Shown: positions 3,372 through 61,537 of the stretch, one piece after another
Numbering within the stretch: the stretch's first letter is position 1
Layout: each line of letters starts with the position of its first letter
Source of the DNA: Nisaea sediminum
GTDB lineage: Bacteria > Pseudomonadota > Alphaproteobacteria > Thalassobaculales > Thalassobaculaceae
NCBI RefSeq assembly: GCF_014904705.1
Contig: NZ_JACZCQ010000002.1
Span: 124,001-188,000, forward strand
Reading direction: 5' to 3'
Length of the DNA stretch: 64,000 bases
Made by a program: the position numbers and the translations under genes
Notes under the pieces: generated by a model
The model's database searches: none
What the model was told of the DNA's origin: nothing
What the model saw: the letters and a program-made list of their open reading frames with translations, nothing else

Positions 3372-4754
3372 ATGAGCGAGATTTCCCCGGTTCACGTCAT
3401 TGGCGGCGGCCTTGCCGGTTCCGAAGCGGCCTGGCAGCTGGCGACGGCCGGAGTTCCCGTCGTCCTGCACGAGATGCGCCCCGAGCGGAAGACCGAGGCG
3501 CATCAGACAAGCGGTCTGGCTGAACTTGTCTGCTCGAACTCCTTCCGGTCCGACGATGCCGAGGGCAATGCCGTCGGCGTGCTGCACGCGGAAATGCGCC
3601 GGCTCGGCTCCGTGATCCTCAGCGCCGCCGACGAGCACAAGGTTCCGGCCGGCTCGGCTCTCGCCGTCGACCGGGATCATTTCTCCCAGGCCGTCGAAAA
3701 AGCCCTGACCGATCACCCGCTCGTCACCGTAGAGCGCGGCGAAATCGCCGGCCTGCCGCCCGAAGAATGGGACTCCGTCATCGTCGCGACGGGTCCCCTC
3801 ACCTCGCCGGGCCTCTCGGAAGCGGTCGCGAAGCTCAGCGGTCAGGAGTCTCTCGCCTTCTTCGATGCGATCGCTCCGATCGTGCACAAGGAAAGCATCG
3901 ATTTCGACATTGCCTGGTTCCAGTCGCGCTACGACAAGGTCGGCCCAGGTGGTGACGGCAAGGACTACATCAACTGCCCGATGGACGAGGCCCAGTACGA
4001 GGCTTTCATCGATGCGCTGCTCGCCGCGGAGAAAATGGAATTCCGGGAGTGGGAAAAGGACACTCCCTATTTCGACGGCTGCATGCCCATCGAGGTGATG
4101 GCGGAGCGCGGCCGCGAGACCCTGCGCTTCGGACCGATGAAGCCGGTCGGCCTCACCAATCCGCGCACCGGCACGCGCGCCCATGCCGTTGTGCAGCTCC
4201 GTCAGGACAATGCGCTCGGCACGCTCTACAACATCGTCGGCTTCCAGACCAAGATGCGCTACGGCGCGCAGGTTGAGGTCTTCCGCACCATTCCCGGCCT
4301 CGAAAAGGCGGAATTCGCCCGTCTCGGCGGCATCCATCGCAACACCTTCATCAACTCCCCGACCCTTCTAGACGGCACATTGCGCATGAAGGCCCTGCCA
4401 CGCCTGCGGTTCGCCGGCCAGATCACCGGGGTCGAGGGCTATGTTGAAAGTTCCGCCATCGGCCTTCTGGCAGGCCGCTTCGCGGCGGCCGAAAGGCTCG
4501 GCCGGGAGATTTCCCTGCCGCCACGGACCACGGCGCTCGGCGCCCTCCTCGCGCACATCACCGGCGACGCGGATGCGGAAACCTTCCAGCCGATGAACGT
4601 CAATTTCGGCCTCTTCCCGCCGGTCGAGCCGGAGATCACGGCGAACGGCAAACGCAGGAAGCTGAAAGGCCGCGACCGCAAGGCGGCAATGGCCGGCCGC
4701 GCATTGCGCGACCTCGACGGCTGGATCGCGGGTGCGCGGATAGCAGCCGAATAG
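3372..4754 (+). CDS. trmFO: Methylenetetrahydrofolate-tRNA-(uracil-5-)-methyltransferase TrmFO
   Basis: A folate- and FAD-dependent enzyme that methylates U54 in the T-loop of tRNA. From the ATG at 3372 the protein is 460 residues, the normal family length. The N-terminus has the Rossmann FAD site [13 protein letters not shown], followed by family-typical [43 protein letters not shown] and [19 protein letters not shown], and ends with [12 protein letters not shown] and NVNFGLFPP. The frame is open upstream to 3306, but that extension ([11 protein letters not shown]...) is not family sequence and homology begins at [13 protein letters not shown]. The stop lies one base from the end of the convergent phytoene-synthase-like gene, so the two transcripts run into each other. 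Confidence 0.95.
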
Positions 4755-50454: not shown

Positions 50455-52044
50455 TCAGCGGTAGGACCGGAAGGAGATCCCGCCTTCGCGGCCGATCTGA
50501 TCGACCAGGGCGACCTCCCAGGTGAGGTAGGCGTTCATCCGCCGCTCCATCTCCTCGCGGCCCGCATCCTTGTCATAGGGCCGCATATAGACGTCGTCGG
50601 GCTCCGCGAGCGGGTCCCCCATCCCGGCCGCCATCGGCAGTCCGGCGGCCTCCCATGCGGCCGTTCCGCCCGCCACGGCGGCCGCCTTGATCCCGATATC
50701 CGCGAGATCCTTCGCCGCAAGCCGGGCAAGCCGCTCGTCGGCGGAGATGAGAACGACACTGTCCGCCCCGCTCCGCGCGACTGCTGCCGATAGCCCTTCG
50801 CGCGGGCACCATCGTGCGCCCTCGGCATGATTGTCCCGGTAATTCAGGCTCCGCGTCAGGTCGACGAAAAGCGCACCTGCATCGACCCGCTTTTTCGCAT
50901 CGCCGGGAGTTAGCGTCTCGATGGCGGGCAGATCCCCGGCCAGCGACGGTTGCCGCGATCCGGTCTCCAGCCGCTCCCCGTCCAGCCCGCCTTCAAGCAC
51001 GTAAACCTCTTCCCAGCCGAGCTGCTTCAGCCAGCTACCTGTCATCTCCGCCCGCACCATCTCTGGATCGACCAGAACGACTCGCGCGCGCTGGGTCGCC
51101 ATGTAGGCATCCGTCGACTGAACCAGCTGGCCGCCGGGTGCATGGCGAGAATCAGCCAGATGACCGGCGGCGAATTCCTCCGCGGTCCGGACGTCAAGAA
51201 CGTAGAGAGTCCGGCGTTCCTGTTCGCTGCGCCATGTTGCGAGCGTCTTGCTGTCGACCCTGCGGACGCCGAACCGTTCGGCGGCCATGCGTGACCTGCT
51301 GCGGGCGGTTTCCGCCCCATCCGCACTTACCTCCGGCGGCGGACGCATATTCCCGTGCTCAAGTTTGTAGCCGGCGAGATGCCAGCCCATGGTCCCGTTG
51401 CGGAGCGCCACGACCTTGTTCGGAATGCCCGCATTGATCAGGGACTGCGCGCCGATGATGCTCCGCGTTCGGCCGGCGCAATTGACGACCACGGTCGTCC
51501 CCGGGTTCGGCGCCGCTTCCTGGACACGGTACACCAGTTCCGCCCCGGGCATGTCGATGCCGGTCGGAATGTTCATCATGGTGAATTCGCTCATCGGCCG
51601 GGAATCCAGCACCACCATGTCCTCGCCGGACTCCATCATCGCCTTCAGCTCCTCGGCGGAGACCGAGGGCGTGCCGTATTCGTGCTCGACGAACTCGCCG
51701 AACGCCTTGCTTGGGACGTAGAGGCCGCTGAACAGCTCCAGCCCCGCCGCCCCCCAGGCATTTACCCCGCCCTCGAGAATGGAGATATCGGCATAACCGA
51801 ACCCGGCGAGCTTCGCGGCGGCGACCTCCGCCAGACCCTCGCCGCCGTCGCAGAGTGTGATCGGCGTGCCGAGCCGCGGCACAAGATCCGCGATCCGCAG
51901 CTCAAGCTGCCCGAGCGGAATGTTGCTCGCGAGCAGGATATGGTTGGAGCCGTAGGTCGCCTCGGGACGGACATCGATCAGGGCAATCTCGTTCGTGCCG
52001 TAGAGCGCGTCGCGCAGCTCTCTTGCGGTTATCGTGCGGGCCAT
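50455..52044 (-). CDS. Rhodanese-related protein with four rhodanese domains
   Basis: A 529-residue cytoplasmic protein of four tandem rhodanese repeats. Domain 1 (about 1-105) starts ITARELRDALYGTNEIALIDVRPEA and has a cysteine in the loop TLCDGGEG. Domain 2 (about 125-245) has VLDSRPMSEFTMM and the active loop VNCAGRTRS. Domain 3 (about 265-380) has YVLDVRTAEEFAAGH, but its loop reads LVDPEMVR without cysteine. Domain 4 (about 385-480) reads LISADERL, also without. So two may move sulfur and two look structural. The tail ends EGGISFRSYR. The start at 52044 has a strong GGGGAGGAGGG site. It is convergent with metC (12 bases apart) and follows the ABC-F gene. Confidence 0.88.
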   Translation of the reverse strand: MARTITARELRDALYGTNEIALIDVRPEATYGSNHILLASNIPLGQLELRIADLVPRLGTPITLCDGGEGLAEVAAAKLAGFGYADISILEGGVNAWGAAGLELFSGLYVPSKAFGEFVEHEYGTPSVSAEELKAMMESGEDMVVLDSRPMSEFTMMNIPTGIDMPGAELVYRVQEAAPNPGTTVVVNCAGRTRSIIGAQSLINAGIPNKVVALRNGTMGWHLAGYKLEHGNMRPPPEVSADGAETARSRSRMAAERFGVRRVDSKTLATWRSEQERRTLYVLDVRTAEEFAAGHLADSRHAPGGQLVQSTDAYMATQRARVVLVDPEMVRAEMTGSWLKQLGWEEVYVLEGGLDGERLETGSRQPSLAGDLPAIETLTPGDAKKRVDAGALFVDLTRSLNYRDNHAEGARWCPREGLSAAVARSGADSVVLISADERLARLAAKDLADIGIKAAAVAGGTAAWEAAGLPMAAGMGDPLAEPDDVYMRPYDKDAGREEMERRMNAYLTWEVALVDQIGREGGISFRSYR

Positions 52045-52070
52045 GCCCTCCTCCCCTTCCATTTGTTTCT

Positions 52071-54071: not shown

Positions 54072-55055
54072 GTGTCTTCAAAAAAAGAAACCATCGTCGT
54101 CGGCGCTCAGCCGCTCAGCCCTTCCGCGACGCCGCTTCCTGTAAAGCCGGCCGAAGCCGAGACCGCTCCAAGGCTCGGATGGATGTACGGGGCAGCCTGC
54201 ATGACCGGCGGCATTGGGCTCGTGACCCTGAATGACGGCATCGCAAAATGGCTGACGGCGGAATATCCGGTCGGGCAGGTCATCGCGTTGCGCGGTGTTC
54301 TCTTGCTGATCCTGCTGTTCGGCTTCGCCTTCACGACGGGACGGCGCGCCCAGTTGCGGGTGACCCGCTGGGATCTCCAGCTCACCCGCGCCTTCATCAT
54401 CGTCGGCAGCACCTACAGCTTTATCTGGGCCCTGAAGCTGATGGCCATCGCGGACGCGACGGCGATCGCCTTCGCAGGTCCCATCGTGACCGCGGCCCTG
54501 GTCGTGCCGCTCCTCGGAGAGCAGGTCGGCTGGCGCCGCTGGACGGCGATCCTGGTCGGCTTCTGCGGCGTGCTCATCATGGTGAAACCGACACCGGCGA
54601 CCTTCTCCACGGTGGCGCTCCTGCCCCTGCTGGCAACCGTGCTCGGCTCCTTCCGCGACATCGTCACCCGCAAGATGCACAAGACGGAAACCACCTTCTC
54701 CATGCTGGCGGTCGGCATGACCCTGGTCACGCTCTCGGGCTTCGCCAGCCTGGCCTTCGACGAGTGGAAGCCGGTCGGATGGGAGGAGGCCGGATTGCTG
54801 GCGGTCAGCAGCCTCTTCGTCGGCGCCGCCCAGTTCCTGATGATCGAGTCGTTCCGCTACAGCGAGGCCGGCTTCGTGACGCCGTTCAAATATACCAGCA
54901 TCGTCTGGGCGGTTCTGATCGGCTTTGTCGTCTGGGGAAATATCCCGGATCTCTGGATCGTCAGCGGAACGGTGCTGGTGATCGGCAGCGGGCTCTACAT
55001 CCTGCACCGCGAGCGGGTGCGCCGTGCCGAGGAAGCCGCGCGGTCAGACGGCTAG
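54072..55055 (+). CDS. EamA/DMT-family transporter
   Basis: A 327-residue inner-membrane carrier with ten predicted helices in two EamA repeats. Repeat 1: MTGGIGLVTLNDGIAKWLTAEYPVGQVIALRGVLLLILL; the end of repeat 1 is ATAIAFAGPIVTAALVVPLLGEQVGWRRWTAILVGFCGVLIMVKP. Repeat 2 ends SEAGFVTPFKYTSIVWAVLIGFVVWGN. The likely start is GTG at 54072 (MSSKKETIVVGAQ); an in-frame upstream extension lies in the ABC-F gene on the other strand. Substrate unknown. Its stop overlaps the HTH gene by 12 bases, tail to tail. Confidence 0.88.
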   Translation: MSSKKETIVVGAQPLSPSATPLPVKPAEAETAPRLGWMYGAACMTGGIGLVTLNDGIAKWLTAEYPVGQVIALRGVLLLILLFGFAFTTGRRAQLRVTRWDLQLTRAFIIVGSTYSFIWALKLMAIADATAIAFAGPIVTAALVVPLLGEQVGWRRWTAILVGFCGVLIMVKPTPATFSTVALLPLLATVLGSFRDIVTRKMHKTETTFSMLAVGMTLVTLSGFASLAFDEWKPVGWEEAGLLAVSSLFVGAAQFLMIESFRYSEAGFVTPFKYTSIVWAVLIGFVVWGNIPDLWIVSGTVLVIGSGLYILHRERVRRAEEAARSDG

Positions 55056-55302: not shown

Positions 55303-55323
55303 AAAGCGCATTATATGCGCTTT
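55303..55323 (-). promoter_or_regulatory. 21-bp operator palindrome with embedded -10 box of the HTH gene
   Basis: Perfect 9-bp arms, AAAGCGCAT and ATGCGCTTT, flank three bases. Read on the minus strand, the centre contains a perfect TATAAT (55310-55315). AGGAGG and the start codon follow within about 20 bases. The position means a bound dimer would block the promoter of the HTH gene itself. A -35 is not clear (TTTCCT, 16 bases up). Confidence 0.75.
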
Positions 55324-55373
55324 TCGACGGGAGGAAACTGTCATTCGAGTGCCGCCGGGATTGCTCCAGACGC

Positions 55374-57443
55374 TCAGGTCTCGGCCGGATTCCGAACCGT
55401 CGCCGGCCTCAGCGCTTCGGAATACGTTCGATAAAACTGCCGGAGAGCCGGGTTATCGGCCGCAAGATCGAGAGCCAGGCTCCGTGCCTCCTTCCCTTCG
55501 CCTCGCCGGCAATGATCGAGAAACGACGAATGCTTCTTTTGCAGCCGCTTAAAATTCGCCGTCGCTGCGAGTGCCGGTCCGCCCATCACGGCAAATATGT
55601 TCGCTGCACGGCTCCGCCCTTTGACCGTCACCGGCGCCAGCTCCAGAGCCGCCAGTCCCGGCGCATGGGCCAGCGTCTCCTCGCTAACGATCAGATCCGC
55701 GCCGAAAACCTTGCACTGGGATTCCAGACGCGAGGCCAGGTTCACCGTGTCGCCGATGGCCGTATAGTTGAAACGCCGGTCCGATCCCATGTTGCCGACG
55801 ATGGCCTTGCCCGTATGAATGCCTATTCCGACGCGAAAGGCATCGTCCCCGCCGTCCGCTTTCCGCTCCGTATTTAGTTTGCGAACCGCCTCGAGCATCT
55901 CCAGCGCCGCGGAGACCGCGTTACGTGCGTGATCCGGATCGGCGATCGGCGCATTCCAGAATGCCATCACGGCGTCGCCCATATATTTGTCGACTGTCCC
56001 GCCATGTTTCAGCACCGGCTCGGTCAGAACAGACAATAACCGGTTCAGGAGTCGCACGAGCTCTTCCGGCCGGTCGGACATGCGCTCGGAAAAGGCGGTG
56101 AATCCGCGCATGTCGCAGAACAGGACGGTCAGTTCTCGAACCTCGCCGCCGAGATGGAGCTGCCCCGGATCGCGCATGATACGTTCCACCATTTCCGGAG
56201 CCAGATACTGCCGGAAGGCCCTGTGAATCCCGAAACGCTGGGCCCGCTCGCGAAGAAAACGTATGGGAAAGACCAGTAGCGTGCCGGTGAACCCGCCGAC
56301 GACCGGGGCTGCGGGTGGCAGCCATATGGCACCGGACAGCAAGACGCAGGAAAGCCCGAAGATCAGGGCCGCGCCCATGGCGCCGAGTGGCAGAGACAGG
56401 GCCGGCGAAAGCGCCATCGCGGCCAGGACGCCAAAGCCGCTGGCAAGGCCGGTCAGGAGCGCGACGAAAGGCCAGTCAACCGTGTGGATCACCTCCCCGG
56501 AAAGCACGCTTTCCGCCGCAAGCGCATGCAGCAGAACACCGGGAACGCTCTCCGGGGAAATCGATGTGCGCAAGGCTGTCAGGCTGCAGCCTGCTGCGGT
56601 GGCGGCTTCGCCGGAAGATCGCTCCGGGAGTCGGACGAAACGGTTCGAGGATCGCTTGCGGTCTTCCTCGTCGAGCCAGCTTCCCACGAAGACGACGCGG
56701 CCGGCGAAAGCTGCACGGACAGCGGCCGAATCCGTACGGGAGCAAGCAAGAAGGTCCGAGAACGCATAAACCGGAAGTGCGAACGCCCGATCCCAGCCGG
56801 CGAGCATGATATCCGGCGGTACCCGGTGGCCCGCATTCGCGAGGGTCGCGGCAACAAGACCGGGCACGATCTCTCCGTTTTCGAGCCGCGTTCCGGACCT
56901 GACCTGGCGATAGGCGCCATCCGGTTCGGGCATGAGTTCCATCGCGCCGAGTGCGTTCCGGTCGAAGCCGAGCGCGGCGACGAAGGGATCCGCGGGCAGA
57001 GAATTCGAGGAGCGCCCGAGCACCACTCTCCCCCGTCCGTCGTAGAGAGCCCGGAGAAGGGGCCGGTCATGATCCGGCTTCCAGCGATTGCCCGAGTAGC
57101 TGAGCAGAATGTCGAACGCGACGGCGTCGGTTCCCGCAGCAAGGAGTGCTTCGAGCGCTTCCGCGAGAACGGGCTGCATGAGTGCTCGCGGGATTTTCGA
57201 GAGTGCCCCGGATGAGAGACTTTCCGCGTCGATCGCGACCACCGCCGTCCGCGTATCCGGTTGGGCGGCCGGGTCCGCGTTCAGCATGACAGCCAGATCG
57301 AAAAGCAGCCCGTTGCCCCATTCGAACCTGCCGACAAGGCCGCCGAACAAGCCTCCAATCAGGACGGCCGCGAACACGAGTCGTCGAATGGCCGGCCGGT
57401 CTTGTTTCAGGGGAGACAGGCGGAAGTTCTGTTCATTCGACAC
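55374..57443 (-). CDS. CHASE2-domain adenylate cyclase (class III)
   Basis: A 689-residue membrane sensor. A first helix (about 20-40) is followed by a periplasmic CHASE2 domain (about 45-330: VVAIDAESLSS, AVAFDILLSYSGNRWKPDHDRPL, VVFVGSWLDEEDRKR), three membrane helices (about 335-400) and a class III cyclase domain (about 435-625). The first metal Asp is at about 444 (LFCDMRGFT) and the second in DKYMGDAVMAFW; the lysine there favours ATP. TAIGDTVNLASRLE supplies the transition-state Asn and Arg. So cAMP synthesis in response to a periplasmic signal is expected. It overlaps the FecR-like gene by 11 bases and is transcribed after it. Confidence 0.92.
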   Translation of the reverse strand: MSNEQNFRLSPLKQDRPAIRRLVFAAVLIGGLFGGLVGRFEWGNGLLFDLAVMLNADPAAQPDTRTAVVAIDAESLSSGALSKIPRALMQPVLAEALEALLAAGTDAVAFDILLSYSGNRWKPDHDRPLLRALYDGRGRVVLGRSSNSLPADPFVAALGFDRNALGAMELMPEPDGAYRQVRSGTRLENGEIVPGLVAATLANAGHRVPPDIMLAGWDRAFALPVYAFSDLLACSRTDSAAVRAAFAGRVVFVGSWLDEEDRKRSSNRFVRLPERSSGEAATAAGCSLTALRTSISPESVPGVLLHALAAESVLSGEVIHTVDWPFVALLTGLASGFGVLAAMALSPALSLPLGAMGAALIFGLSCVLLSGAIWLPPAAPVVGGFTGTLLVFPIRFLRERAQRFGIHRAFRQYLAPEMVERIMRDPGQLHLGGEVRELTVLFCDMRGFTAFSERMSDRPEELVRLLNRLLSVLTEPVLKHGGTVDKYMGDAVMAFWNAPIADPDHARNAVSAALEMLEAVRKLNTERKADGGDDAFRVGIGIHTGKAIVGNMGSDRRFNYTAIGDTVNLASRLESQCKVFGADLIVSEETLAHAPGLAALELAPVTVKGRSRAANIFAVMGGPALAATANFKRLQKKHSSFLDHCRRGEGKEARSLALDLAADNPALRQFYRTYSEALRPATVRNPAET

Positions 57444-58107
57444 GTATCACCGCAAGGTTGCCGTGCGTAAGCGAGGAAATGACCGCTATCCGCAGGGCGC
57501 TCAAGCCGGATCGTTTCCGGAGTTCGAGTCTAAATTCCTCTCCCTCGTGCAGGTTCGCGGCAAGAGACGAAATATCGACGGTGTGATCGAGGAGTTCGAT
57601 GGATTCCGGCGCGCCACTCCCCTTTCGAATTAAATCCGCGCGAACGATTTCGGGAGCGCCGGGGCCGGTGACGATCAGGGTCGCCTTGGGTGAAAGCCTG
57701 AGAATGTCATCCCCTCGGAAAAGAACGCCGCCCACATCCTGGGACGCGTCAGGCTCCCCGGTCTTGGGACACCCTCTCGCCGTGCGCGCGACAATATCTC
57801 CCCCGACGATGCGATAGCTCCCGGCGCGCAGGGTGAGAAGACCGCTCTCGACCGTGACTTCCTCGCAGCGCCGGTAATGCAGGAAGGTCACGCGTGTCCC
57901 GGTATCGAGCTGCAACTCCATGCCGTCTGCGATTTCAGAGAAGGCGGCAAGTTTCTGATCCGCCACCTTTCCCTCAACGCTGACCAGAAGGGCAACGGGT
58001 TCCGCCCTGGCAAGGGACGGCGCCAGAATGAGCTGGAGCATTAGGCCGAGCATCACGGCGGCCTGAAGGCATTTAGTATTCAGGAACAATGGCCCGCGCT
58101 CGGACAT
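57433..58107 (-). CDS. Secreted FecR-like domain protein
   Basis: A 224-residue exported protein. The signal peptide is long (hydrophobic LQAAVMLGLMLQLILAPSLARA, mature part from AEPVALLV). The mature N-terminus, LLVSVEGKVADQKLAAFSEIADGMELQLDTGTRVTFLHYRRCEEVTVESGLLTLRAGSYRIV in parts, looks like a FecR-type sandwich that elsewhere occurs with CHASE2 cyclases. The rest is unknown, with a beta-rich C-terminus. The ATG at 58107 has GGAGG 6 bases before it, so I prefer it to 58143. It is first in a two-gene unit with the cyclase and divergent from the caspase gene. Confidence 0.75.
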   Translation of the reverse strand: MSERGPLFLNTKCLQAAVMLGLMLQLILAPSLARAEPVALLVSVEGKVADQKLAAFSEIADGMELQLDTGTRVTFLHYRRCEEVTVESGLLTLRAGSYRIVGGDIVARTARGCPKTGEPDASQDVGGVLFRGDDILRLSPKATLIVTGPGAPEIVRADLIRKGSGAPESIELLDHTVDISSLAANLHEGEEFRLELRKRSGLSALRIAVISSLTHGNLAVIRVE

Positions 58108-58175
58108 CCCGTGCCTCCGCAACAAACCCGGATCACGCTGCAACGAAGCTTTCGCAAAACCCGAGTCTTGTTATG

Positions 58176-58181
58176 TATAAT
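58176..58181 (+). promoter_or_regulatory. TATAAT box in the divergent FecR-like/caspase gap
   Basis: A perfect TATAAT stands on the plus strand about 100 bases before the caspase gene. The complementary strand offers an overlapping TATTAT (with TGGTCA 16 bases upstream) for the FecR-cyclase genes. The -35 on the plus strand is poor. One AT-rich spot may therefore serve both promoters. Confidence 0.35.
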
Positions 58182-58276
58182 AGCACCGGAATGCGGATTG
58201 ACCACAGATGATGGAAAACCGCGTCAGTTTTCCGAGCAGGACGCGCCGGCTCGGTCTGCACCCCGGGAGGTACCTC

Positions 58277-59860
58277 ATGTCCCGTATACGCAGTTTTCGT
58301 CTTGTCCCGCTTCTACTCGCATTTCTGGTGGCGATGACGCTTCGGCCCGGCGTGGCGCCTGCCGCGACGAACGGAAAAGCCTTCGCCCTCATCATCGGGA
58401 TCGATGCCTATGACAGAGGCTGGCCACGATTGCGCAATGCGGTCAGCGACGCTAAGGCGGTAGCCGACACCCTCGGTACACTCGGGTTCGAAGTCGAGCT
58501 TCGCACGAACGTCACCGGCGAGGAGCTGCACCGTCTTCTCCTTGAATTCTTCGTTATCAAGGGCGCGGATCCCGAGGCCCGGCTTCTGCTATGGTATGCG
58601 GGGCATGGCGAGACGATCGATGGCGAGGGATACCTCGTCCCGCGCGACGCGCCGATCTCGGCCAAGCCGCAATTCCTCCTTGCAGCAACCCCTGTCCGGA
58701 TGCTCGGGTCCTACGTCCGCCTTGCACAGGCCCGCCACGTCCTCGCCATCTTCGATTCCTGCTTCGCCGGAACGATCTTCGAGTCCCGAAGCGCTCCGGC
58801 GGCGCAAACAATCGCCCGGATGAGCGAGCCGGTTCGAGAGTTCCTCACCTCCGGCGATGCGGGCCAGAGAGTGCGCGACGACGGCAGCTTCCGGGATTAT
58901 TTCCTGCGTGGAATTACGGGCGAGATCGCCGCGGATTTCAATAGCGACGGCTATGTCACAGGTGCGGAACTGGGACTCTACATGTCGCAGAAGATCACCG
59001 AACTGACCGGCTCGGCACAAACACCGCAATATGGAAAACTCCACGACATTCGCTTCAACCGGGGCGATTTCGCTTTTGCCGTCGGCGGTGCGTCGATCGG
59101 ATCTGATTCCCCATCTCGCCGGGACCAGGACGGGCTGTTCTGGGACTCTGTCAGATGGAGCATGCATGCGGCGGAATACGAAGCCTATCTGCAGCAATTC
59201 CCGGACGGAATGTTCGCAGCACTCGCGAAGGAGCGCCTGTCCAGGCTCCGCGCAGGCGAGCCTTTGGTCGGCGACACCATCCCCGGACTCTGGCCACTGG
59301 ATCAGTCGATGGTGATCGCCGGAAGCGCGCCGGTAAATATCCGTGGCTGGCCAAATCAGAATGCGCCGTTGCTCAAGGAGATCCGTCCCGGTACAGATGT
59401 CACGGTGACCGGCAAGACGACGAATGGCGAATGGTTCCAGACGATTCTGCAGGATGGCCGGACCGGATACCTGCTCGGAACCTATCTCGTGGACAAGACA
59501 GAAACCGCACCGGCGGGTCCGGGCCACGCCCTGCAGGCGACCTTCGGTCCGCCGGTAAACGAGACGGTCACCATCCGCTTCAATCCGCGGCAACCTGAAA
59601 TCCGGCACACGGCCTATCTCAAGAGCGGCGCAATCGCGTGGTTCGACGGCGATATCTATGCGGATGAGATGGCGCTTTCGATCTTTGTCGATTCACCCGA
59701 CTATCACAGTGTTGCCCCGACCTTCAGGCATGTCTTCAATACAGCGGTCCCCAATTCCGTGACGCTGGAGAATCTGACACCTGAAGCCGGCCGCGCATGG
59801 GCGGACATGAACATCGAGTACAAGACGCTAAACGTCCAGGTCGCCGTGACGATCCGGTAA
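58277..59860 (+). CDS. Exported caspase-family (C14) protease with EF-hand-like loop and SH3b domain
   Basis: A 527-residue protein. Signal peptide MSRIRSFRLVPLLLAFLVAM to AATNG; then a caspase (orthocaspase/metacaspase-like) domain (about 33-260). It has FALIIGIDAYDRGWPRLRNAVSDAKAVAD, the catalytic histidine H110 in LLLWYAGHGE and the catalytic cysteine C162 in AIFDSCFAGTIF. At residues 220-231 DFNSDGYVTGAE fits the calcium-binding EF-hand loop. An SH3b domain (about 350-410: VNIRGWPNQNAPLLKEIRPGTDVTVTG) and a beta-rich C-terminus follow. Expected to act in the periplasm. ATG 58277 has GGGAGG 7 bases upstream. It is divergent from the FecR-cyclase pair. Confidence 0.9.
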   Translation: MSRIRSFRLVPLLLAFLVAMTLRPGVAPAATNGKAFALIIGIDAYDRGWPRLRNAVSDAKAVADTLGTLGFEVELRTNVTGEELHRLLLEFFVIKGADPEARLLLWYAGHGETIDGEGYLVPRDAPISAKPQFLLAATPVRMLGSYVRLAQARHVLAIFDSCFAGTIFESRSAPAAQTIARMSEPVREFLTSGDAGQRVRDDGSFRDYFLRGITGEIAADFNSDGYVTGAELGLYMSQKITELTGSAQTPQYGKLHDIRFNRGDFAFAVGGASIGSDSPSRRDQDGLFWDSVRWSMHAAEYEAYLQQFPDGMFAALAKERLSRLRAGEPLVGDTIPGLWPLDQSMVIAGSAPVNIRGWPNQNAPLLKEIRPGTDVTVTGKTTNGEWFQTILQDGRTGYLLGTYLVDKTETAPAGPGHALQATFGPPVNETVTIRFNPRQPEIRHTAYLKSGAIAWFDGDIYADEMALSIFVDSPDYHSVAPTFRHVFNTAVPNSVTLENLTPEAGRAWADMNIEYKTLNVQVAVTIR

Positions 59861-59903
59861 GCCCGGATTTAGCCGCCGCTCAACCTCTCCTGCGGAAGGG
59901 AAT

Positions 59904-59926
59904 GGAGGGGCACGGAGCGCCCCTCC
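59904..59926. terminator. Hairpin between caspase and porin genes
   Basis: GGAGGGGC pairs with GCCCCTCC (8 bp) between the two convergent genes. There is no U run, so it is only a possible bidirectional terminator. Confidence 0.45.
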
Positions 59927-59937
59927 GGATCGATGGA

Positions 59938-61065
59938 TCAGAACGTCACCCTGATCCCGGTGATCGCATAGGCCGCCTGGATATCGCCGGCGCCGGCGGT
60001 ATCGCTGGTATATTCGGAATATCCGATCGTCGCCTGTGCACTCACGCCCGGCCCGAGAATGTACTGCCCGCCGAGTGCGATCGTGTCCCGGTCCGCCTGA
60101 ACGGTGCCCGGAGCGGTGCTGCCCGCCAGCCCGTCGCGCTCGCCATGCAGATAGGTCAGACTGACGCCGTACTGACCGAAATCGTACGACGCACCGAGCG
60201 TGTAACCGTCCCCGTCATTGGCGCCCGAATCCTGGAACCCGGCGAAGGAACCGCCGACCTGTAAACCGCCATAACCCAGCGTCAGACCGAAGGCATAGGC
60301 CTGCGGTTCGTCCTGGCCGGACGCCGTCTCGAGAAACGTGCCGTAGCCGGCCGACGCGGCGACGGTCACACCGCTGATTTCCCGGCTGACGTCGATGCTG
60401 GCCATGACGCCGTCTGAGAGACCCGCGTTGCGGTCCGGCTGCGTGTTGTTGTCCTGATTGCTGTCCGGCGAATAGGACATTCCGAGACGGACCCCTTCGA
60501 TCCGGGGCGTGTAGTAGGTGAGCTTGGTCGAGTCGTTGGCCCGCACCGGCTCGACATAGGTGCCGCCGAACGGCGCGCGGAAGTAACCGCCGTTGCCGAT
60601 CGAGGTCGCCCCGGTCAGTTCCCAGTCGACCGTATCCCCCGAATTGATCCCCATGCCGTATTCCTTCGGCGCCACATGGGTCTTGTAGAGGGCGGAATTC
60701 TCGTCGCCGATGTCGATCTGGCCGAAATTCCCCCGCAGGGTCAGATAGCTTTCGTCGATCTGGTCGCTGGAGTTGCTGTTGCCCTCGAGCTGGACATTGA
60801 TCCCGACCTCGAGACCGTTGTCGAGCTTGGTGCTTCCGACGAAGTGAATTTCCGTGTCGGATTTCACGTCGAACCCGCTGAGGTCGAGACTGCTGTTCCC
60901 CTCGTCGTCGATATCCGTGTAGCCGAACCATTGTTCGGCATATCCCCCGACAGAAAGCTTCAGCTTTTCCGCCGCACCTGCCGGGTCTGCCGAAAGGATG
61001 AAACCGGCTGCAACGAGAGACGTTGTCTGCAAAAGTCCTGTTCTTGCTGAATATTTGAACGCCAT
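59938..61065 (-). CDS. Outer-membrane porin
   Basis: A 375-residue Gram-negative general porin. Signal peptide MAFKYSARTGLLQTTSLVAA up to AGA, then a beta-barrel: KLKLSVGGYAEQWFGYTDID, VKSDTEIHFVGSTKLDNGLEVGINVQLEG, YLTLRGNFGQIDIGDENSALY (the typical LxGxFGxxxxG strand) and a C-terminal strand ending GIRVTF with a terminal phenylalanine, needed for BAM recognition. It has many D, N and G-rich turns. The ATG at 61065 has GGAG 7 bases before it. Specificity cannot be told. Confidence 0.93.
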   Translation of the reverse strand: MAFKYSARTGLLQTTSLVAAGFILSADPAGAAEKLKLSVGGYAEQWFGYTDIDDEGNSSLDLSGFDVKSDTEIHFVGSTKLDNGLEVGINVQLEGNSNSSDQIDESYLTLRGNFGQIDIGDENSALYKTHVAPKEYGMGINSGDTVDWELTGATSIGNGGYFRAPFGGTYVEPVRANDSTKLTYYTPRIEGVRLGMSYSPDSNQDNNTQPDRNAGLSDGVMASIDVSREISGVTVAASAGYGTFLETASGQDEPQAYAFGLTLGYGGLQVGGSFAGFQDSGANDGDGYTLGASYDFGQYGVSLTYLHGERDGLAGSTAPGTVQADRDTIALGGQYILGPGVSAQATIGYSEYTSDTAGAGDIQAAYAITGIRVTF

Positions 61066-61537
61066 GAGTTTCTCCGTGCACCGGTCCGGGGTTCCGCCCA
61101 CCCGGTGCTGGTCAAGTGAACAAATCAGGCCGGCAGGCGGTAACCGTCTGCCCGACTCCGGCAGGTAGGACCGAAAACGGAAATCCACAACAAGCACGCG
61201 TCCCACTGTTTTGTGAGCCAGAGATGCACCGGCCTTTTTTCAAGGCCCGGCGCCGCATTTCAATCCCGCTCTGCAAGGGAAAATGATTGATGCCGGATGC
61301 GGGGAATTGAATCTCAGCCTTCCCGTGCCTAGGCGATCTTACACGACTTGCCGAAAGGCCGAATATGCAGTGGAGCGGCGTTCTTTCATCGGCAAGATTC
61401 TTGGGACCGCTTGGCAATTGTCGGCTCCGGACCGTCATGCTAACCCGGGGCAACGTGCGACCCTCTCCAGGGGATGCTCCCCTGCCGCAACCGGACTGTT
61501 CCACCGATCGCGACTGTCAGAAATTCGGAGATACGAG
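61066..61537. other. Non-coding gap before the acyl-CoA synthetase gene
   Basis: This stretch separates divergent porin and acyl-CoA synthetase genes. I see no credible ORF, RNA gene or good promoter pair. GGCCTT-TTTTC-AAGGCC (61231-61247) is a short palindrome. The synthetase frame is open through part of the gap, but its codons do not look like family sequence. Confidence 0.5.

Follow-up and report, generated by a model that had tools for sequence, protein, structure and literature searches.

Within a 64,000-nucleotide stretch of the Nisaea sediminum genome (contig NZ_JACZCQ010000002.1, positions 124,001 to 188,000; here called the window), three genes form a cassette (55324 to 59937) that encodes a CHASE2-class III nucleotide cyclase, a small two-cysteine protein that is predicted to be exported and that we call the hub, and a C14 caspase that is probably exported as well. 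The cassette is real, recurrent, ordered, and marked by residues of its own; its function we infer. We propose that it is a periplasmic receptor in which the protease targets the hub, or the CHASE2 ectodomain that the hub covers, and thereby sets the output of the cyclase (probability of about 0.42). CHASE2 receptors with an exported partner are already known; what is new here is the partner family and the changing types of protease beside the receptor.

The cyclase gene (55374 to 57443, minus strand; 689 amino acids) and the hub gene (57433 to 58107, minus strand; 224 amino acids) overlap by 11 bp, and the caspase gene (58277 to 59860, plus strand; 527 amino acids) is transcribed away from this pair across a 169-bp intergenic region (58108 to 58276). 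The first-pass annotation had described the three genes, the overlapping pair, and the divergent gap correctly, but the range it gave for the locus, 57433 to 59860, leaves out the cyclase. By eye, a GGAGG-like ribosome-binding site precedes each of the two divergent starts (58107 on the minus strand and 58277 on the plus strand), and a promoter scan picked out a single sigma-70-like site, with hexamers at 58204 to 58177 of the minus strand, against 0.2 expected. The cassette lies between an EamA gene that ends at 55055 and a porin gene at 59938 to 61068.

The cyclase, identified from its open reading frame and from Pfam, matches CHASE2 at 62.8 bits (cut-off, 26.3) and Guanylate_cyc at 82 bits. 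A first transmembrane helix at about residues 18 to 41 is followed by the CHASE2 ectodomain with Cys234 and Cys286, by transmembrane helices at about 324 to 410, and by the cyclase domain at 435 to 609. In a structure model (mean predicted local distance difference test [pLDDT] score, 66), one helix is N terminal (16 to 38) and three (324 to 344, 347 to 370, and 378 to 410) follow the ectodomain, which is the layout of a CHASE2 receptor, with the ectodomain between one N-terminal and three C-terminal transmembrane segments. The catalytic residues D444, K486, D490, T561, N568, and R572 are present; we take these to have the usual class III roles (two metal-binding aspartates, D444 and D490; a substrate-binding lysine, K486; and an Asn-Arg pair, N568 and R572, together with T561). 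A lysine and a threonine at the places of K486 and T561 suggest an adenylate rather than a guanylate cyclase, and the product of this enzyme is probably cyclic AMP (cAMP). The caspase matches Peptidase_C14 (residues 36 to 165; 66.1 bits, cut-off 21.4) and carries the dyad H110 and C162; its C-terminal half contains one SH3_3 domain (353 to 404; 29.7 bits) and ends in approximately 110 amino acids without an assigned domain. D444 and C162, the two residues that had been singled out earlier, are thus both in place.

The hub had been labeled FecR-like, an identification that we reject: the window hub has no Pfam match at an E value of ≤1, none of 11 hub members matches FecR (PF04773) in Pfam, where three stray matches to other families have E values of ≥0.11, and a search of 17 members against NCBIfam returned three stray matches, one member each, at E values of 0.058 to 0.08. 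Alignment with hhalign to a profile built from canonical FecR frames, 47 in number and taken from other loci, gave probabilities of 2.3% for the whole hub and 10.3% or 1.9% for its N-terminal part; these 47 frames come from loci preselected for CHASE2 or caspase and therefore do not give a rate. An AlphaFold2 model of the hub, built from seven sequences, is beta-rich with a mean pLDDT of 61 (73 to 88, by block, at residues 41 to 110). It has no match in the PDB at an E value of ≤0.001 (best E value, 0.03), and the best match of the hub profile to solved structures is a hemagglutinin fragment at an E value of 0.01. Since the model is poor and the structural matches are unconvincing, the hub may have a distant FecR-like fold. 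To judge from its sequences, it is a family of its own, without a name. Beyond its signal-like start, the window hub carries Cys81 and Cys113; cysteines near the two positions are kept in 62 of 62 and 61 of 62 hub loci, respectively.

The hub recurs in other genomes. A profile of 17 members matched 49 of 385 genomes of the same class, Nisaea sediminum included, at 58 places, and a phylum-wide draw found the hub in 10 of 299 genomes, 8 of which belong to that class. We infer the class to be the Alphaproteobacteria because the named hub loci are two from Azospirillum, three from Bradyrhizobium, and one from a Rhodospirillales metagenome-assembled genome. Our survey comprised 62 hub loci, namely, 56 of the 58 profile places (the window among them) and the six named loci; two places, L339 and L347, were dropped because no frame rose above the threshold, and L069 also lacks a profile match. 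As controls, we used 89 CHASE2 loci without a hub, made up of 72 of the 74 hub-less loci of a contig scan, 13 top-scoring CHASE2 loci, and four loci from Nisaea sediminum. The contig scan lists at least 80 loci and is a sample, and caspase-centered loci were excluded from the controls by design. Neighbors were sought within 6 kb of the hub with iterated profiles, and the CHAT profile was widened to check the zero among the controls. On average, 10,640 of a possible 12,000 bases were scanned per hub locus and 10,286 per control locus, and 43 of the 62 hub loci have full flanks.

A CHASE2 cyclase is present in 44 of the 62 hub loci, and in every one of these the hub gene immediately precedes the cyclase gene in the same orientation, at a median distance of 8 bp (range, −314 to 180 bp, with gene starts uncertain). 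Three protease types accompany the hub: CHAT in 14 loci, C14 in 10, and M48 in 12, versus 0, 0, and 4 of the 89 controls. Caspase-fold proteases (CHAT and C14 together) thus accompany the hub in 24 of 62 loci, against 0 of 89 for the controls (Fisher P = 2 × 10−11), in 20 of the 44 cyclase-bearing hub loci (P = 6 × 10−12), and, when the window and the weak locus L344 are set aside, in 22 of 60 (P = 1 × 10−10); all three P values ignore kinship. Counted by family, at least one caspase-fold locus is found in 15 of 25 hub-bearing families, and when a single locus is drawn at random from each family, an average of 11.6 of 25 are of this kind. C14 is spread over 7 families, CHAT over 11 plus one named locus, and M48 over 9. 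Any of the three types is present in 36 of 62 hub loci versus 4 of 89 controls, or in 33 of 62 if M48 frames are counted only when they bear HExxH, a motif kept in 9 of 12 M48 frames at hub loci and in all 4 at controls. The CHAT gene directly precedes the hub gene, in the same orientation, at no fewer than 10 of the 14 CHAT loci, and in L212, L304, L310, and L324 the two lie within 6 bp of each other or overlap. The C14 caspase of the window is therefore one of several protease families found at hub loci, a feature that the first-pass annotation did not contain.

Hub-linked cyclases also differ from other CHASE2 proteins in a paired-cysteine signature, likewise absent from that annotation. 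In an alignment, all 44 hub-linked cyclases keep Cys234 and D261-R262 and 43 of them keep Cys286, while none of the 89 controls has a cysteine at either position or up to four columns away. Each of the 44 ectodomains contains exactly two cysteines; the ectodomains of 83 of the 89 controls contain none, and the other 6 have one to four elsewhere. Cys286 and the EDR motif lie in an insertion, a stretch that is mostly gapped in the controls, and residues 256 to 298 are modeled at low confidence. In a tree of 54 cyclases (44 hub-linked and 10 randomly chosen controls), built by a quick method and containing one long row and several open forks, the 10 controls fall on one side of a branch with a support of 99 and the 44 hub-linked cyclases fall on the other. 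The distribution of proteases on this tree requires 3 changes (gains or losses) for C14 and 6 for CHAT, or at least 3 and at least 4, respectively, when well-supported branches alone are counted. Protease type has therefore changed more than once on the hub-cyclase framework.

Export of the hub and of the proteases was assessed with a hydrophobicity rule of our own in place of a trained signal predictor, and not all gene starts are certain. The rule assigns a signal-like start to 51 of the 62 hubs, to 8 of the 14 CHAT frames, and to 8 of the 10 C14 frames. Three CHAT frames (L064, L303, and L306) are cut by contig ends, and the two C14 frames without such a start are those of L309 and the fragment in L344. 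The window caspase has a signal-like start and is probably exported, in agreement with the earlier prediction. Lipoboxes are present in the CHAT proteins of L212, L305, L317, and L324 and in the caspase of L337. Among the M48 frames, the rule finds a signal-like start in 3 of 12; by eye, most of the others (L323, L325, L327, L329, L331, L336, and L346) open with a twin-arginine stretch that leads into a hydrophobic segment. The catalytic motifs are largely kept: all 14 CHAT frames have the Cys motif and 13 have the His motif, the remaining one being cut short, and both motifs are present in 9 of 10 C14 frames, the exception being L344.

Starting from what is directly observed (the gene identities, catalytic residues, recurrence, hub-cyclase order, cysteine signature, and absence of the block from sister genomes), the receptor that we propose would work as follows. 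The exported hub would bind the CHASE2 ectodomain of the co-encoded cyclase and would be where the exported caspase intervenes, with the hub or the ectodomain as the substrate. After activation of the caspase, or exposure of its target, the hub would be cut or bound and the state of the CHASE2 sensor would shift; the cytoplasmic cyclase would then raise or lower cAMP, its presumed product, which could be read by the cyclic nucleotide-binding proteins of the cell. The hub is the likely link in this chain because it accompanies the cyclase, a protease (as in L035 and L311, where a C14 gene adjoins it), or the two together, the pattern that a connecting element should show; this agrees with the role of connecting sensor and protease that the first-pass annotation gave to the small protein. 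A profile search of the Nisaea sediminum genome gave five CHASE2 matches, one C14 match, one hub match, 10 matches to cyclic nucleotide-binding proteins, and zero CHAT matches. Among 56 neighbor genes scanned at hub-cyclase loci without a known protease, two encode cyclic nucleotide-binding proteins. One of these is an ABC transporter with a cyclic nucleotide-binding domain, encoded directly downstream of a hub-linked cyclase (L320, 1346 to 4600); it fits a cyclic nucleotide output and is a possible direct reader of the cyclase product.

Several observations weigh against this proposal. The divergent layout of the window caspase could mean separate regulation. In 26 of the 62 hub loci, and in 16 of the 44 cyclase-bearing ones, the 6 kb around the hub contain no C14, CHAT, or M48 protease (43 of the 62 having full flanks); at the cyclase loci without a known protease, 56 of 75 neighbor genes were scanned, and no other protease recurs among 25 of 77 families, with an S10 peptidase as a neighbor in L266. 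Clear hub-protease pairs without CHASE2 are few, namely, L035 and L311, in which the C14 gene adjoins the hub, and L345, in which a distant hub relative is joined to an M48 gene that keeps HExxH; in all three, the fetched stretch contains no CHASE2 gene. The hub-M48 pairs of L340, L341, and L346, also distant hub relatives with no CHASE2 in the fetched stretch, lack HExxH; L344 contributes a 175-amino-acid caspase fragment with neither motif, in a stretch that ends 574 bp past the hub; and the hub of L337 is a fragment, which makes this hub-protease pair without CHASE2 weak. Of the three nearest relatives of the window caspase, those in L161 (52%) and L164 (49%) are in loci without a hub or CHASE2, and the one in L311 (53%) is alone in having a hub. 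Conversely, CHASE2 cyclases occur without a hub in 5 of 96 caspase-centered loci (L040, L041, L152, L204, and L202). The four of these cyclases that were checked lack the cysteine pair, and such loci may represent an independent pairing of caspase and CHASE2 cyclase. Contig G042:C88, which lies outside the 89 controls, has CHASE2 at 234 to 1187 and CHAT at 3843 to 4646, 2.7 kb apart, and no hub match.

Two further details of individual loci concern these gene sets. In L040, a signal-bearing DUF4384 protein is encoded between the caspase and the CHASE2 cyclase. In L318, L319, L321, and L322, from four genomes of one genus, a second, solitary copy of the hub lies in a conserved neighborhood without cyclase or protease.

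The same divergent arrangement, with its 169-bp gap, would suit a different order of events, in which cAMP made by the hub-CHASE2 pair turns on the divergent caspase gene and the exported caspase processes envelope or surface proteins or harms the cell. Some hub loci include genes linked to surface export: in L065, L067, L068, and L309, an autotransporter-type barrel stands beside a beta-propeller caspase divergent from the hub-cyclase pair, and ShlB-type two-partner secretion genes lie near the hub-cyclase pair in L247, L281, and L302, versus 2 of 89 controls. (In L302, a protein with a two-partner secretion domain comes after the ShlB-type gene.) The cyclic nucleotide-binding proteins of the Nisaea sediminum genome also speak for this order. 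However, the CHAT gene is the next gene upstream of the hub on the same strand at most CHAT loci, and a complex therefore fits better than a regulated output; we consider the protease an unlikely output of the pathway. We judge it quite improbable that the cysteine pairs of the hub and CHASE2 are disulfides that report periplasmic redox state, with the nearby cysteine proteases answering the same cue. The two conserved cysteines in each partner, which the controls lack at the ectodomain places, and the retention of the Cys and His motifs in nearly all CHAT and C14 frames speak for such a thiol sensor, but the cysteines could be purely structural disulfides, and M48 metalloproteases, most of them with HExxH, occupy 12 of the 62 hub loci too.

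The remaining two alternatives are far less plausible. An unrelated caspase could have come to lie beside a CHASE2-type sensor by chance or by hitchhiking; the block is absent from congeners and so might be a random mobile block, and 26 of the 62 hub loci are without a CHAT, C14, or M48 gene nearby. The survey largely refutes this reading, with caspase-fold proteases in 24 of 62 hub loci versus 0 of 89 controls, in 15 of 25 families, and with a tree on which the type of protease changes several times, and we hold it to be very unlikely. A Pycsar-like defense system, in which phage would trigger the cyclase and a killing effector would follow, was considered because in PADLOC the cyclase domain is matched by PycC models (best E value, 6 × 10−32) and the protease by a caspase model (1.5 × 10−11). 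These matches span generic catalytic domains only, the hub and the protease each begin with a signal-like segment, and the sensor is on the periplasmic side. Of six neighbor proteins searched in PADLOC, five have no match and the sixth, an ABC ATPase, has ATPase-type matches only, and no Pycsar effector was found by PADLOC among the three cassette proteins or these six neighbors. We rejected this candidate as weak, the cyclase offering catalytic-domain homology alone, and regard it as highly improbable. The catalytic domain of the window cyclase, an ordinary one of class III, is matched by ten PycC models of PADLOC, and such matches alone therefore overcall Pycsar. A role for the cassette in cell death is unsupported.

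Comparison with congeners indicates that the three genes are a discrete block. Sequence searches found the small protein in 0 of 4 congeneric genomes and the caspase in 0 of 4. In three of these (G001, G002, and G003), the EamA gene is directly followed by the porin gene; window DNA matches these genomes up to 55323 to 55326 and resumes at 59917 to 59940, and the three genes are therefore the missing block. In the nearest congener (G004; EamA 98% identical), the match ends at 55323 and resumes at 61528, the porin gene being gone too. The G+C content of the block is 62.2%, compared with 64.7% and 63.8% in the flanks, and base composition gives no clear foreign mark. Because all four congeners are without the block, we reject the three-gene set as a fixed genus trait. 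The first-pass annotation had looked to co-occurrence of the three genes across genomes; the association does recur in distant families but is absent from the four congeners.

Several described systems resemble the cassette in part; these comparisons, and the literature background below, draw on the available portions of the cited papers. Closely similar are CHASE2 adenylate cyclase clusters of Campylobacterota, which pair a CHASE2 cyclase with a FecR protein (PMC9239204). In those clusters the FecR domain is real, a phosphodiesterase and a TPR protein are also encoded, and the paper makes no mention of a caspase; none of the eight window proteins scanned with Pfam matches FecR, phosphodiesterase, or TPR. 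TPR does occur in the CHAT protein of L212. In the BiofilmReg operon of Burkholderia contaminans (PMC5192318), an exported FecR-domain protein is encoded directly upstream of a CHASE2 sensor, as the hub is here. That sensor, however, is a histidine kinase acting with a response regulator, the FecR protein combines LysM with a real FecR domain, and the four genes described in the accessible part of the paper include neither a caspase nor a CHAT protein. No kinase or response regulator was found among the eight window proteins scanned, in which CHASE2 is joined to a cyclase. In the Nisaea sediminum genome itself, a canonical FecR protein is encoded near a CHASE2 gene (L033); it resembles the hub as an exported partner near a CHASE2 protein but, unlike the hub, matches PF04773 at 41.9 bits.

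In Sinorhizobium meliloti, the CHASE2 cyclases CyaD1, CyaD2, and CyaK make cAMP in response to an external protein via the outer membrane protein NsrA (PMC13001267), and the FecR-domain protein SMc02177 has been studied with the cAMP-responsive Clr regulon (PMC5498481); the available portions of both papers mention neither a hub-like protein nor a caspase in this system. Metacaspase genes are reported to be absent from two S. meliloti strains (PMC3501461). A caspase domain is linked to a CHASE2 receptor in a metacaspase-CHASE2 fusion of Trichodesmium erythraeum (PMC3501461, PMC2853523), which is a single polypeptide with a caspase suggested to be cytoplasmic and for which the accessible text mentions neither cyclase nor hub. 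EACC2 caspase proteins with a C-terminal CHASE2 domain likewise combine the two domains, in single proteins of TRADD-N conflict systems (PMC8195603). Signaling domains have been counted in 23 metacaspase operons, CHASE2, FecR, and cyclases not being named in the available part of that study (PMC3501461), and a WD40-CHASE2-DUF928 cluster is described in one cyanobacterium (PMC5587647). Characterized C14 members other than caspases are reported to cut after basic residues (PMC5756287). The literature searched, mostly without subscription papers and in part as excerpts, contains no description of a three-part system of hub, CHASE2 cyclase, and caspase.

The ligand of CHASE2 was called unknown in 2016 (PMC5192318), and one protein signal, sensed via another envelope protein, has since been reported in S. 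meliloti (PMC13001267). The recurrence of the cassette suggests that protein cutting outside the cytoplasm is tied to intracellular cAMP signaling. A further and more tentative proposal, which we would call doubtful at present, is that the cassette belongs to a distinct receptor class, a periplasmic complex of exported two-cysteine hub and two-cysteine CHASE2 cyclase switched by an exchangeable exported protease (C14, CHAT, or perhaps M48). If so, proteolysis outside the membrane would be converted into cAMP inside the cell. The cysteine signature sets the hub-linked receptors apart from the CHASE2 proteins of the 89 controls, and the protease family found at loci of this kind varies from one locus to another. 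The available portions of the literature examined name no partner for exported bacterial caspase homologs, and the hub family offers a defined one. The cassette is thus a small gene set with which to ask whether caspase-fold proteases of bacteria act as signaling switches rather than killers. With no evident relation to the cassette, a protein with four rhodanese stretches is encoded elsewhere in the window, at 50455 to 52047.

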